This document shows, one piece after another, positions 10,508-47,626 of a stretch of 64,000 nt of DNA. The position numbers and the translations under genes were made by a program. This DNA comes from Natronolimnohabitans sp. A-GB9 (GTDB lineage: Archaea; Halobacteriota; Halobacteria; Halobacteriales; Natrialbaceae): the NCBI RefSeq assembly GCF_030848565.1, contig NZ_JAVDDV010000001.1, positions 372,001 to 436,000 of the forward strand, written 5' to 3'. Positions within the stretch are counted from its first letter, which is position 1; every line of letters begins with the position of its first letter. The notes under the pieces were generated by a model. That model was not told the origin of the DNA, did not search any database, and saw only the letters and a program-made list of their open reading frames with translations.

Positions 10508-10589
10508 TACGGACTGCTGTATCGATGTTCCGGTGCGATCGCAGGACAGGTCACGGTCGCACCGGAATTGACGTACAGCAGACCGTGTC
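10506..10589. repeat. 84-bp hairpin repeat, ATACGGACTGCTGT family, copy 1
   Basis: Imperfect inverted repeat beginning inside the amidohydrolase stop codon. The left arm GATACGGACTGCTGTA..TTCCGGTGCGA pairs with the right arm TCGCACCGGAA..TACAGCAGACCGTGTC. Related elements lie at 18163, 33542 and 47545, with half copies at 26033, 35126 and 40053. The position after a stop codon suggests a transcription-terminator or RNA-stability role. Confidence 0.7.
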
Positions 10590-18162: not shown

Positions 18163-18244
18163 ATACGGATTGCTGTACCGATTTACCGGCGCAACCGCAG
18201 TCCGGGTCGCGGTTACGCCGGTAACGACTGACAGTAGTCCGTAT
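18163..18244. repeat. 82-bp hairpin repeat, ATACGGACTGCTGT family, copy 2
   Basis: The best-formed copy. Left arm ATACGGATTGCTGTACCGAT..ACCGGCG.AACCGC and right arm GCGGTTACGCCGGTAA..ACAGTAGTCCGTAT pair over about 36 bases around a roughly 10-base loop. It lies 45 bp downstream of the minus-strand reductase stop, so a terminator role for that gene is possible. Confidence 0.75.
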
Positions 18245-23666: not shown

Positions 23667-24239
23667 ATGAACGGCACCGACAACGACGATCCGGACGACG
23701 GATTCGCCGCCACTACCGACGATATCCGTGCGTTGGCGGCCGACGCCGCACTCGAGTCCCACGGTGTCGAAACCGGTGGTCCCGCACCTATCGTTCGACA
23801 CGGCATCGACGTCGTCTCGATCGGCCGCATCGCCGACCTGCTCGCGGAGTTCGGCGCGTCGTTTCGCGGTCGGGCGTTTACGGACGCGGAGTGTGCCTAC
23901 TGCGAGGGCAGAGGCGAGCCGGCACAACATTACGCCGCCCGGTGGGCGGCCAAGGAGGCCTTCTGCAAGGTTCTCGCCGAGGAATCGCCGGCGATCCCGC
24001 TCGATTCGATCGAAGTCGTTCGCGAGGCGACCGGTCCGCGACTCGCCCTCGAGTCGCCCGCCGCCGAGACGCTCGCCGCGTCCCTCGAACGGGAGGGCGT
24101 CGACCCCGACGCGGTGGCGATCGACGTTTCGCTCAGCCACGATCGGCGCGTCGGCTACGCCGTCGGTTCGGTGACCGTCGTCGGGATCGAAACCGGATCC
24201 CGATGTGATCGACCTACTGACGAGAATACTGAGAGATGA
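23667..24239 (+). CDS. 4'-phosphopantetheinyl transferase, AcpS-like
   Basis: About 190 aa. It transfers phosphopantetheine from CoA to the Ser of ACP. An N-terminal extension of about 45 residues precedes the AcpS core: HGIDVVSIGRIADLL (Mg-binding Asp), FTDAECAYCEGRG and YAARWAAKEAFCKVL (Mg-binding Glu), and late VSLSHDRRVGYAVGSV. A GTG at 23661 overlaps the fabF stop by four bases; I list the ATG at 23667. It is the dedicated activating enzyme for the ACP two genes upstream. Its end overlaps the next start by four bases. Confidence 0.87.
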   Translation: MNGTDNDDPDDGFAATTDDIRALAADAALESHGVETGGPAPIVRHGIDVVSIGRIADLLAEFGASFRGRAFTDAECAYCEGRGEPAQHYAARWAAKEAFCKVLAEESPAIPLDSIEVVREATGPRLALESPAAETLAASLEREGVDPDAVAIDVSLSHDRRVGYAVGSVTVVGIETGSRCDRPTDENTER

Positions 24240-25180
24240 TGGATACGGACGAAGCGACGACACGTACGGACACGGCCTTTGTCTTCCCCGGGCAGGGGAG
24301 CCAACGCCCCGGGATGGGACAGGAGTTCTACGACGCGTGGCCGGAGACGCGAGCCACGTTCGACGACCTCGATTCGGCCCTCGAGATCGATCTCTCCGAT
24401 CGGTGTTTTCGGGACGAACTCGAGGAACTCACGCGACCACGAAACGCACAGCCGGCGCTTTTGGCAGCCGGATACGCGACGTATGCCGGCATCACGTCTC
24501 GGTTCGGCGTCGAGCCGACCTACGTCGCCGGCCACAGCCTGGGCCATTTCACGTCGCTTGCAGTCGCGGGCGCGGCGTCGCCGACCGACCTCGTCGACGT
24601 CGTTCGTCGGCGTGGCACGTTCATGGAACGGGCCGAACGCGACGCGGGGCCCGGGACGATGATGGCGGTCTTGCTCGTCGACCGAGCGACGGTCGCCGAC
24701 GCCTGTAGCGACCGCGACGACGTCGGCGTCGCGCTGTACAACGGGCCGCGACAGACCGTGGTAAGCGGGACGCTCGAGGGGATCGAAGCCGTCCGGAACG
24801 CACTCGACGACACCGACGCGCGGTTTCGCGAACTCGAGGTCGGCGCGGCGTTTCACTCACCGGTGATGGCGTCGGCAGTCGACCCCGTCGAAGACGTGAT
24901 GGCGTCGCTATCGATGCGCGAGGCGTCGATCCCGATCGTCTCGGACGTCTCGGGGGCGGTCTACACCGACCCGGACGTCGCCCGTCGGGATCTTACGACA
25001 CAGATCACCGCGCCCGTCGACTGGGTGGGCGTCGTCGAGACGCTGAAGCGCCGCGGCGTCGACCGATACGTCGAGTTCCCGCCGACCGGCGTCCTCTCGA
25101 GTCTCATCGAACGGATCCATCCGGACGCGGAGTGTTACACACTCGAGACGCCTGCCGACGCCCGGGAGGTGTTTGCCTGA
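24236..25180 (+). CDS. fabD: malonyl-CoA:ACP transacylase
   Basis: A 314-aa acyltransferase that loads malonyl onto ACP. It has AFVFPGQGSQRPGMGQEFYD (about residues 14-33), the nucleophile motif VAGHSLGHF with Ser101, the Arg-bearing RRRGTFMERA and the catalytic His in AAFHSPVMASAV near residue 206. The C terminus has DWVGVVETLKRRGVDRYVEFPPTGVLSSL, as in FabD. It is translationally coupled on both sides (ATGA overlaps). Malonyl-CoA supply would need a biotin carboxylase, which is not in the window. Confidence 0.9.
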   Translation: MMDTDEATTRTDTAFVFPGQGSQRPGMGQEFYDAWPETRATFDDLDSALEIDLSDRCFRDELEELTRPRNAQPALLAAGYATYAGITSRFGVEPTYVAGHSLGHFTSLAVAGAASPTDLVDVVRRRGTFMERAERDAGPGTMMAVLLVDRATVADACSDRDDVGVALYNGPRQTVVSGTLEGIEAVRNALDDTDARFRELEVGAAFHSPVMASAVDPVEDVMASLSMREASIPIVSDVSGAVYTDPDVARRDLTTQITAPVDWVGVVETLKRRGVDRYVEFPPTGVLSSLIERIHPDAECYTLETPADAREVFA

Positions 25181-25923
25181 TGGCCGAGTTTCGTGACGAG
25201 ATCGCCGTCGTCACCGGCGGCACCCGCGGGATCGGCCGCGCCGTCGCGGAGCGATTCGCCGACGGCGGTGCGACGGTGATCGTCACCTACCACGCCGACG
25301 AGGAGGCGGCCGACCGGACGCGTGACGCGCTGGCGACGTCTCCGACCGAGACCGCAGTCGAGCGGTGTGACGTGACTGACTTCGACGCCGTCGCGGCGGT
25401 GTTCGAGACGGTCGCCGAGCGATACGGACCGCCGACGATCCTCGTGAACAACGCCGGCGTGATGGACAACGGCCTGTTGGTCCGGATGGCCCCCGAGCAG
25501 TGGCGACGCGTCCTCGAGACGAACCTCTTCGGACCGTTCTACTGTACACGCGAGGCGGCGCGGTCGATGCTTCGACACGACGGCGGACGGATCGTCAACG
25601 TCGCAAGCGTTGCGGCACGGCGCGGCTGGGCGGGACAGGCCAACTACGCCGCGAGCAAGGCCGGACTCATCGGACTGACCCGCGCGGCGGCGCGAGAACT
25701 CGGTGGCAAGGACATCCGCGTCAACGCCGTCGCGCCGGGGTACACCGACACCAGCTTGCTGGAAGACGTCGCCGACTACGAGACACTCGTCGAGGACCGA
25801 ACCGCGAGCGGACGGGTCGCGACTCCCGACGAGATCGCCGACGCGATCGCGTTCCTGGCCAGCGATGCCGCGTCGTACGTCAACGGCGAGGTGCTCAGAG
25901 TCGACGACGGACTGCTCGGCTGA
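25180..25923 (+). CDS. fabG: 3-oxoacyl-ACP reductase (SDR)
   Basis: A 247-aa short-chain dehydrogenase. NADPH motif VVTGGTRGIGRAVAERF at residues 10-26, LVNNAGVMDNGLLVRM, catalytic triad in NVASVAARRG and the YAASK of GQANYAASKAGLIGLTRA, and the end VNGEVLRVDDGLLG all fit bacterial FabG. The ATG shares its A with the fabD stop (ATGA overlap). It is the last gene of the cluster; a 110-bp hairpin begins within its stop codon region and probably ends the transcript. Confidence 0.9.
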   Translation: MAEFRDEIAVVTGGTRGIGRAVAERFADGGATVIVTYHADEEAADRTRDALATSPTETAVERCDVTDFDAVAAVFETVAERYGPPTILVNNAGVMDNGLLVRMAPEQWRRVLETNLFGPFYCTREAARSMLRHDGGRIVNVASVAARRGWAGQANYAASKAGLIGLTRAAARELGGKDIRVNAVAPGYTDTSLLEDVADYETLVEDRTASGRVATPDEIADAIAFLASDAASYVNGEVLRVDDGLLG

Positions 25924-26032
25924 TACTTCCGGACAAAAGTCAGTAAACACCCGATCGCGCCTCGACGCCTGTCGCGTTCCGCGACAGCGTCTCGAGTGCG
26001 ATCGGTGTGTGCATCGTTTTGTCCGGTAGTAT
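25923..26032. repeat. 110-bp hairpin repeat downstream of fabG
   Basis: A long inverted repeat. Outer arms ATACTTCCGGACAAAA and TTTTGTCCGGTAGTAT pair at 15 of 16 positions, and inner arms carrying ACACC-GATCGC and ACGC-TGTCGCG close on a 2-3 base loop (GTCGCG-TTC-CGCGAC). It starts in the fabG stop. A relative with ATACTGCCGGACAG ends lies at 60110. Confidence 0.75.
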
Positions 26033-26066
26033 GAGACGGACTGCTGTCCCGATTTCCCGCCGATCG
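26033..26066. repeat. half copy of the ATACGGACTGCTGT repeat
   Basis: GAGACGGACTGCTGTCCCGA followed by TTTCCCGCCGATCG matches the left arm of the copies at 33542 and 18163, but the matching right arm is missing. It directly abuts the 110-bp hairpin, as if one element had inserted next to or into another. Confidence 0.5.
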
Positions 26067-26128
26067 TCATACGCGAGTCGAACGACGCGGTGTGACCGAC
26101 GATCATCCCGGGTGTGACGACGAGGCCG

Positions 26129-26509
26129 TTAGTCGCGTTCGTGAACGACCGTCTCGTCACCGAGACCTGCAAACCGATGAGTGTGGCGCCACGTCTCGTA
26201 CGGACCGCGCCCCTCGAGTTGTTCGTCGACGAAAGACGCGCGATCGTCGTTTACCTCGCGCTCGACGATTTCGACGACCCACTCGCGTTTGGGGGCGGAG
26301 TCGAGTCCGAAGGGTTGCAACTCGAGGTGGACTTCCGTCCCGACGCGATACCCGTCAGGATCGAGGTCTCCGTCGGGACCGACCGTATGCGAGACCGCCA
26401 TCCCCGTCCAGTCCGGCGTTAGAATCTCGAGTTCTTCGACGCCGTCGTAGAACTCCCAGACGGTCTCGAAGTCGGCCGGGATCACCGAGACCCTCTCGTA
26501 GGTCGGCAT
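26129..26509 (-). CDS. SRPBCC/START-like protein, apparently short at the C terminus
   Basis: A 126-aa protein of the Bet v1-like SRPBCC superfamily (polyketide cyclase/dehydrase type). It starts MPTYERVSVIPADFETVWEFYDGVEEL, with the usual beta-helix-beta start, and TEVHLELQPFGLDSAPKREW later. It stops at TVVHERD, where relatives usually continue with another beta hairpin and a long helix, so it may be truncated close to the hairpin elements at 25923-26066. It binds hydrophobic ligands by family analogy. It is convergent to fabG, and any part in the acyl pathway is speculation. Confidence 0.65.
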   Translation of the reverse strand: MPTYERVSVIPADFETVWEFYDGVEELEILTPDWTGMAVSHTVGPDGDLDPDGYRVGTEVHLELQPFGLDSAPKREWVVEIVEREVNDDRASFVDEQLEGRGPYETWRHTHRFAGLGDETVVHERD

Positions 26510-33541: not shown

Positions 33542-33621
33542 ATACGGTCACCTGTCGTCACGTCCCGCCGATCGCCGACCCTGTGTGGCGATCGACGAGA
33601 GATCGGGACAGCAGTCCGTAT
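33542..33621. repeat. 80-bp hairpin repeat, ATACGGACTGCTGT family, copy 3
   Basis: The left arm ATACGGTCACCTGTCGTCAC..GCCGATCGCC pairs imperfectly with GGCGATCGACGAGAGAT..GGGACAGCAGTCCGTAT. It fills the gap between two convergent genes and its right end touches the antiporter stop codon at 33621, an ideal position for a bidirectional terminator. Confidence 0.7.
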
Positions 33622-47544: not shown

Positions 47545-47626
47545 GTATGGTCTTCTGTCGTCACGTTCTGCCGATCGCCGATCCCGTCCTGTCGATCGAC
47601 GAGACAGCGAGACAGCAGTCCGTCTC
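47545..47626. repeat. 82-bp hairpin repeat, ATACGGACTGCTGT family, copy 4
   Basis: Left arm GTATGGTCTTCTGTCGTCAC..TGCCGATCG, right arm CGATCGACGAGACAGCGAGA followed by CAGCAGTCCGTCTC. Less perfect than the other copies. Its right end overlaps the sppA stop codon (47625-47627), so it again marks a gene's 3' end. Confidence 0.6.

Follow-up and report, generated by a model that had tools for sequence, protein, structure and literature searches.

A 108-bp palindromic element with TNA target duplications at a haloarchaeal fabG stop codon and its probable IS630-family mobiliser

The hairpin at the fabG stop codon and the adjoining repeat

The DNA analysed here (the window) is a stretch of 64,000 nucleotides from Natronolimnohabitans sp. 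A-GB9, hereafter the source genome. It carries a fabG-like gene and, convergent with it, a gene for a 126-aa protein, for which a Pfam search gave no match at E 1e-3. Between the two lie a palindromic element, A2, and a repeat of the ATACGGACTGCTGT family, B2 (Table 1). Four subfamily profiles were used to describe these repeats, namely A1 (107 bp), A2 (108 bp), B1 (80 bp) and B2 (79 bp). The original prediction of a long hairpin at the fabG stop was borne out, and the element was found to start directly past the stop codon. Folding of the RNA from position 25900 to 26100 gave a z-score of −5.07, which none of 200 shuffles equalled, and A2 alone (25924–26031) folded at −63.5 kcal/mol with 44 pairs and a 3-base loop. 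The earlier description of a near-perfect stem of about 53 pairs had overstated the extent of pairing, as the stem of the window copy contains bulges and, without gaps, 56 of its 108 positions equal the reverse complement. The stop of fabG is kept, because one of the two TGA target duplicates is that stop codon. At positions 24236 to 25923, an acyltransferase gene (PF00698) adjoins the fabG-like dehydrogenase gene; of 125 Natrialbaceae genomes, only 15 have a match to this acyltransferase at E 1e-30, and Natronorubrum bangense carries it both on the chromosome and on a plasmid.

Table 1. Positions of the elements, target duplicates and genes at the fabG locus, and of further B copies in the window.
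Feature	Position	Strand	Basis or remark
fabG-like short-chain dehydrogenase gene	25180–25923	+	Pfam PF13561/PF00106, ORF; stop codon is the insertion target
Left target duplicate TGA, the fabG stop codon	25921–25923		Sequence
A2 element, 108-bp palindromic probable MITE	25924–26031		Profile match 1–108, E 6.5e-37; 44 pairs; multi-copy
A2 left terminal repeat	25924–25950	+	21/27 bases equal the left end of the IS630-TNA element
A2 right terminal repeat	26005–26031	−	18/27 bases equal the left end of the IS630-TNA element
Right target duplicate TGA	26032–26034		Sequence; B2 repeat of the ATACGGACTGCTGT type starts there
B2 element (ATACGGACTGCTGT family), diverged	26035–26129		Profile and local alignment; left border intact
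Convergent 126-aa gene	26129–26509	−	ORF; stop codon 26129–26131 touches the B2 end
B1 copy	10508–10587		TGA on the left flank, at a predicted stop; TCG on the right
B1 copy	18164–18243		TGA on both flanks
B2 copy	33543–33620		TCA on both flanks, at a predicted stop
B2 copy	47546–47624		Flanks TCG and TCA, at a predicted stop

The hairpin had originally been read as inserted into the second repeat, cutting it to a half copy. What speaks for such a truncation is that the B2 profile covers only model positions 2 to 65 of 79 (window 26036–26096). The weakly matching part, however, lies at the far end, away from the hairpin, whereas the hairpin-side border of the B copy is intact, starting with its first base. 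Local alignment also revealed a degraded right end (CGGGTGTGACGACGAGGCCGT) at about 26109–26129, where it is expected, finishing at the convergent gene's stop codon; as high a score was reached by 8 of 3000 randomly drawn 65-bp pieces of this contig, and these may include true B copies of that contig. With its degraded right end in place, the window B2 thus appears to be complete, though diverged and longer in the loop. The adjoining ATACGGACTGCTGT-family copy reported earlier is thus real but is not a half, and A2 abuts B2 rather than truncating it. We rejected the truncation reading as very improbable.

A relative age of the two families cannot be derived from a truncation, as had been proposed, but divergence alone suggests an order at this locus. 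The window A2 is 98–100% identical to several other copies in the source genome and the adjoining B copy is worn, an indication that A2 is the younger; judged from this sequence divergence, B likely came first and A2 later. At another locus (L008) the order is shown directly by nesting: A2 sits in the loop of a B element, and its removal together with one TGA yields an uninterrupted B element, so that B was first and A2 second. At 8 of the 40 A-hit loci of the source genome, an A copy has a B copy no more than 60 bp away. The two abut and share one TNA at three of them (L001, which is the window locus, L013 and L038), A2 lies inside B at L008, and the gap is 13–32 bp at the remainder (L002, L010, L015 and L028); on contig C1, three element pairs share one TNA (A2-B1, B1-B1 and A2-B2). 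A single fixed composite recurring at many loci was not seen among these loci, and that reading was rejected because the geometries differ. A preference of A for B was also considered but not adopted, as the 8 of 40 loci may just reflect the confinement of both families to intergenic DNA.

Copies, target duplications and insertion sites

BLAST of 25915–26080 against the source genome (4.30 Mb, 72 contigs) gave 79 matches, a number in which the palindrome counts on either strand and fragments are included; several were 95–99% identical over about 113 bp. Of the 125 Natrialbaceae genomes, 40 have a match at E 1e-5, representing 17 of 29 genera, and so have eight plasmid records from Natribaculum, Natronorubrum, Natrialba and Natrononativus. 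The A end pattern TNATACTNNCGGACA occurs 347 times in the source genome, against 0 for a control read backwards. It is present in 139 of 392 genomes of the order, many of them with few, possibly chance, hits, since the control gives single hits too; it is abundant in some genomes of other families (G413, 163; G304, 110; G185, 48; G246, 35). The B pattern TSAKACGGWCTSCTGT was counted 288 times in the source genome (control, 1) and is present in 93 of the 392 genomes.

Alignment of A2 copies revealed mostly C-T-N-A before the element and T-N-A after it, with N the same on both sides of a copy and varying between copies. The A2 profile was run on 77 loci (40 in the source genome, 37 elsewhere), of which 59 held complete copies, forms of 78 bp with an internal deletion included. 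Equal TNA flanks were found in 48 of these 59 copies at distinct loci (25/30 in the source genome and 23/29 elsewhere), and 11 had none. Scanning 456 kb of contig C1 for palindromes without regard to family gave 15 equal against 3 unequal TNA flanks when at least 13 of 16 terminal pairs were demanded, the 15 including a few likely chance palindromes; the counts were 27 against 10 at 12 of 16 pairs and 9 against 1 at 14 of 16. A profile search of the same contig retained 75 elements at E <1e-3 (from 147 at E <1), of which 44 were full-length A or B elements. Equal TNA flanks were seen in 32 of the 44 (TGA 16, TCA 14, TAA 1, TTA 1), B being a second family with the same duplication. Pairs of neighbouring ends agreed in 37 of 37 cases among 100 listed ends of 110 in G304, which belongs to another haloarchaeal family, and in 17 of 21 cases in the source genome, where the pairs were picked by hand from 100 listed ends of 347.

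The check for empty sites at the fabG 3′ flank also gave a positive answer. The fabG orthologue of G101, which its coordinates identify as Natronorubrum bangense, has a 93% identical protein; it reads CTCGGC-TGA-GACGAG at its end and carries neither element. In another genus, one genome has a filled site at the stop of fabG (L049; CTG-TGA-[B element]-TGA-GGCGATCGG), and a second holds the corresponding empty site (L050; CTG-TGA-GGCGATCGG). Taken with the window, this pair shows that both families hit the stop of this gene in two lineages, each leaving TGA twice. A relative with exactly one of A2 and B at the window fabG site was sought and not found; the only other genome of the genus searched (G001) has no fabD neighbour at E 1e-30 and gave only a 43% match. 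The empty site and the target duplications together support the earlier view of two mobile palindromic elements, one beside the other.

TNA stands for TAA, TGA, TCA or TTA, each of which is a stop codon on one strand. A simple gene finder based on codon usage predicted 385 genes in the 456 kb of C1, and 31 of the 75 elements lay exactly on a predicted stop (24/50 B and 7/25 A); the other 44 did not. Half (16) of the 32 full-length copies that have duplications coincide exactly with a predicted stop, and 24 lie within 100 bp downstream of a gene end. As background, 245 of 3429 TNA sites outside genes and elements are predicted stops, and C-TGA sites within that 100-bp zone are stops in 106 of 218 cases. 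The coincidence of elements and stops needs no further cause, because a preference for C-TGA and a location at 3′ ends suffice; a stop-codon preference beyond sequence and position was rejected in view of the C-TGA background. The position at 3′ ends may in its turn reflect selection against copies that insert into genes or promoters. Only 6 of the 75 elements lie mostly inside predicted genes, and the elements are rarer in divergent spacers, which hold 11 of the 75 but make up 24.9 of 84.5 kb of spacer. In annotated records, an A2 copy of Natronorubrum aibiense begins directly behind an annotated hypothetical-protein gene, and a larger element introduced below, IS630-TNA, begins directly behind the last base of an ABC-transporter gene in Natribaculum luteum. 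Seven further A2 records were inspected, two of which are not resolved to the base and two without gene annotation at A2; among the five other A2 records with gene tables, three A2 copies lie 17, 24 and 106 bp behind a gene.

A candidate mobiliser and the weighing of alternatives

Isolated ends of the TACTCACGGACA type led to an element of 1069–1070 bp, flanked by TNA, in G278 and G322, which we call IS630-TNA. Its transposase matches DDE_3 (PF13358, E 4.7e-32), and the C-terminal part matches NF033545 (E 4.1e-43, 147.9 bits against a cut-off of 100); the N-terminal part of another copy reached 89.7 bits with NF033545, below the cut-off. Among 17 loci checked in G050, G051, G278, G322 and G304, both ends were found at 16, with equal TNA at 14 of the 16, and neither end was found at the G304 locus. 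The same structure recurs in named records from Natribaculum, Halorubrum, Haloarcula, Halovenus and Natrinema, with equal TNA in 6 of 8; at least 2 of these are probably identical to copies among the 16, because the coordinates of G050 and G051 point to Natribaculum breve and N. luteum. The element thus has the DDE_3/IS630 transposase of the IS630 family but not the TA target duplication of that family, as TNA was found in its place (14/16).

Comparison of the ends linked A2 to this element. The 27 terminal bases of A2 match the left end of IS630-TNA at 21 positions (left) and 18 positions (right), and the A1 ends match it at 14 and 17; the B ends match the IS630-TNA ends at 10–11 positions, no better than chance. 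Just one of the 4169 27-mers of contig C1 that start with TAC matched the IS630-TNA end as well as the A2 left end does, and this one is possibly A2 itself. A2 has the hallmarks of a MITE: it has terminal inverted repeats, it is short and multi-copy (108 bp, with no room for a transposase), it is flanked by a target site duplication (48/59), and it has an end in common with an autonomous transposon (21/27) that exists as a whole element in relatives.

The distribution of the transposase was then compared with that of the A ends. Ten genomes were picked for many A ends; four of them have a transposase relative of at least 83% identity and six have no close one, four of these six giving no match at E 1e-10. 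None of 18 genomes of the same genera, picked for none or one A end, has a close transposase (best, 47%). The source genome has the most A ends, yet it shows only a remnant of IS630-TNA and distant relatives. The remnant (L154, contig C10 near 50600) consists of an end, TCA-TACTCAAGGACATAAG, and a 59-residue transposase stretch of 76% identity. No TNA-flanked ends were detectable at a 43% IS630 relative on contig C56, and an end search at a further IS630-family gene, of Natrarchaeobaculum, gave no resolved ends. Because only a remnant is seen in the source genome, mobilisation in trans was proposed; repeated elements may be missing from the 72-contig draft assembly. On the evidence of the ends and flanks, the IS630-TNA transposase is probably the mobiliser of A2, acting in trans. 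The search for a mobiliser of B found none.

The terminal repeats, the TNA duplications, the multi-copy spread, the empty site and the nested insertion elsewhere mark A2 as a mobile element. We consider it highly probable that the hairpin is a non-autonomous haloarchaeal MITE that duplicates TNA, with IS630-TNA as its putative mobiliser in trans and with B as a second, untruncated MITE family. A DDE transposase would cut a C-TNA-G-like target with a 3-bp stagger, and A2 would be joined at the cut, leaving TNA on both sides; with the fabG stop TGA as target, one duplicate would keep the stop. The transposase would come, in trans, from the 1,070-bp IS630-family element seen in related genomes, whose ends resemble those of A2 and which likewise duplicates TNA. 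Such a mechanism would readily explain how mobile palindromes accumulate at the ends of genes while leaving the genes unbroken: any TNA triplet reads as a stop on one of the two strands, and duplicating it puts the stop back. A set of repeats whose ends number in the hundreds in a single haloarchaeal genome thereby gains an identity, a rule for its targets and a probable mobiliser.

The mobiliser might be a different one. The IS1031 group of IS5 also duplicates TNA, and a TNA-duplicating MITE moved by such a transposase would fit the lack of a whole IS630-TNA copy in the source genome, the six of ten A-end-rich genomes without a close transposase relative, and the family B, which has TNA yet unrelated ends. 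On the other hand, the 21 of 27 matches of the A2 left end, equalled by one of the 4169 27-mers of C1, argue for IS630-TNA, and the IS4/IS5-type transposases of the source genome were examined as mobilisers, and none fits. None of the 13 PF01609 hits is bordered by A or B ends, and among the 11 with enough flank for an end search, four have clear ends with 8- or 10-bp duplications and there is no TACT-type TNA pair. We therefore regard another transposase as unlikely. An element of the REP or PATE kind, mobilised in single-stranded form by a tyrosine transposase of the IS200/IS605 or REP-associated type, would share whole-element palindromy, high copy number and position between genes with A2, but TNA is duplicated in A2, and the description of PATEs in PMC3119063 gives such elements neither terminal repeats of this kind nor a target duplication. 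This makes such an origin extremely improbable.

The hairpin could instead be primarily a host 3′-end signal, that is, a bidirectional terminator or RNA-processing hairpin selected between the convergent fabG and 126-aa genes. Its position between convergent genes and the rarity of the elements in divergent spacers speak for this, as does the stem followed by TTTTGTCCGG at the A2 end, which makes one weak terminator-like consensus site. Compensatory changes that keep the stem of A2 point the same way: among 38 copies, 13 of 31 consensus pairs are changed on both sides. These copies were taken from 58 entries; the eight entries of the 78-bp form were set aside, as were 12 more that included near-duplicates and reversed duplicates as well as some diverged copies. 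Paired changes amounted to 95 cells against 32.1 in shuffles, with none of 500 shuffles as high and at most 15 cells when the partner was slid; the shuffles ignore the kinship of the copies, which tempers this support for a host signal. On a second statistic, that of further pair types, 23 of 500 shuffles matched the observed value. The stem may be maintained because the hairpin matters in mobilisation or has a function for the host, or because one arm is corrected from the other. The terminal repeats, the TNA duplications that vary between copies, the empty sites and the nested copies are marks of a mobile element, 44 of the 75 elements do not coincide exactly with a predicted stop, and an Rfam search gave no match. 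A plain terminator was rejected as the main reading on the mobile-element hallmarks, and a primary host role appears distinctly improbable.

The MITE reading can be extended, although only as a speculation that we think is rather doubtful. A haloarchaeal IS630-type clade might have switched from TA to TNA duplication; since TNA is a stop on one strand, the element and its MITEs would be steered into stops in a GC-rich genome, the duplication would restore the stop, insertion would be nearly harmless, and some compensated hairpins might serve as 3′-end signals between convergent genes.

Relation to known elements

Correia, RUP and ERIC elements are bacterial MITEs, and those mobilised by IS630-type transposases duplicate TA. 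They resemble A2 in being short, palindromic, non-autonomous and located in intergenic DNA; the duplication differs, as TA is duplicated by those that IS630-type transposases move and TNA by A2. Palindromic MITEs of pneumococci have been reported to insert into one another. RUP and SPRITE are named in PMC10969869.

Among haloarchaeal repeats, SMR-A of Haloquadratum walsbyi is like A2 in being about 110 bp long and gene-free, with prominent terminal repeats and tens of copies, according to its description in PMC3119063, and the same text gives it no target duplication and no relation to any known transposon. Compared by that description only, A2 agrees with SMR-A in size (108 bp) and terminal repeats but differs in its 3-bp TNA duplication and IS630-like ends. 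SMR-A is described there as often inserted in palindromes of other mobile elements (PMC3119063); A2 lies within 60 bp of B at 8 of 40 loci, one of them nested, with no clear preference. The PATEs of Haloquadratum are likewise transposase-free, multi-copy and palindromic; as described in PMC3119063, they derive from IS605-type elements and are without terminal inverted repeats or duplications, unlike A2, which has both. ISNma7 of Natrialba magadii resembles IS630-TNA in its DDE_3/IS630-family transposase and similar length, but its best-scoring end pairs, the best of several weak ones, have a 2-bp TA, whereas IS630-TNA has TACT ends and TNA.

TA is the classical duplication of IS630 elements, among which TNA is unusual, and TAA and TAAA are reported in eukaryotic pogo-type relatives (PMC7386202). 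Our results suggest that IS630-type target duplication is more plastic than the textbook TA, and haloarchaeal repeats reported without target duplications may merit re-inspection for TNA. The literature searched consisted mostly of open papers; among the matches listed, no title or abstract start describes the A2 family or an IS630 element with TNA. Literal motif strings in paper texts gave, among the matches listed, titles that look unrelated.

Several variant forms were seen beside the standard elements. A 78-bp form of A2 without the hairpin tip, still a palindrome, is present at eight loci (L030, L032, L034–L037, L039 and L040). On contig C1 near 291330, a perfect 15-bp palindrome, TACTGTCTGACAGTA, stands between TAA and TGA beside a B copy and resembles two A ends joined without an interior. 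At L134 (G304, contig C2, 49400–52900), two A-type elements with the same TCA flanks lie at both ends of a 1606-bp stretch, an arrangement like a composite transposon that may be coincidence. G185 (L141–L144) and G171 (L150), from another haloarchaeal family, carry a further 108-bp element with the ends TACTGACGGACAAAAG and TACTGGTGGACGAAAT, and some of its copies are flanked by equal TNA.
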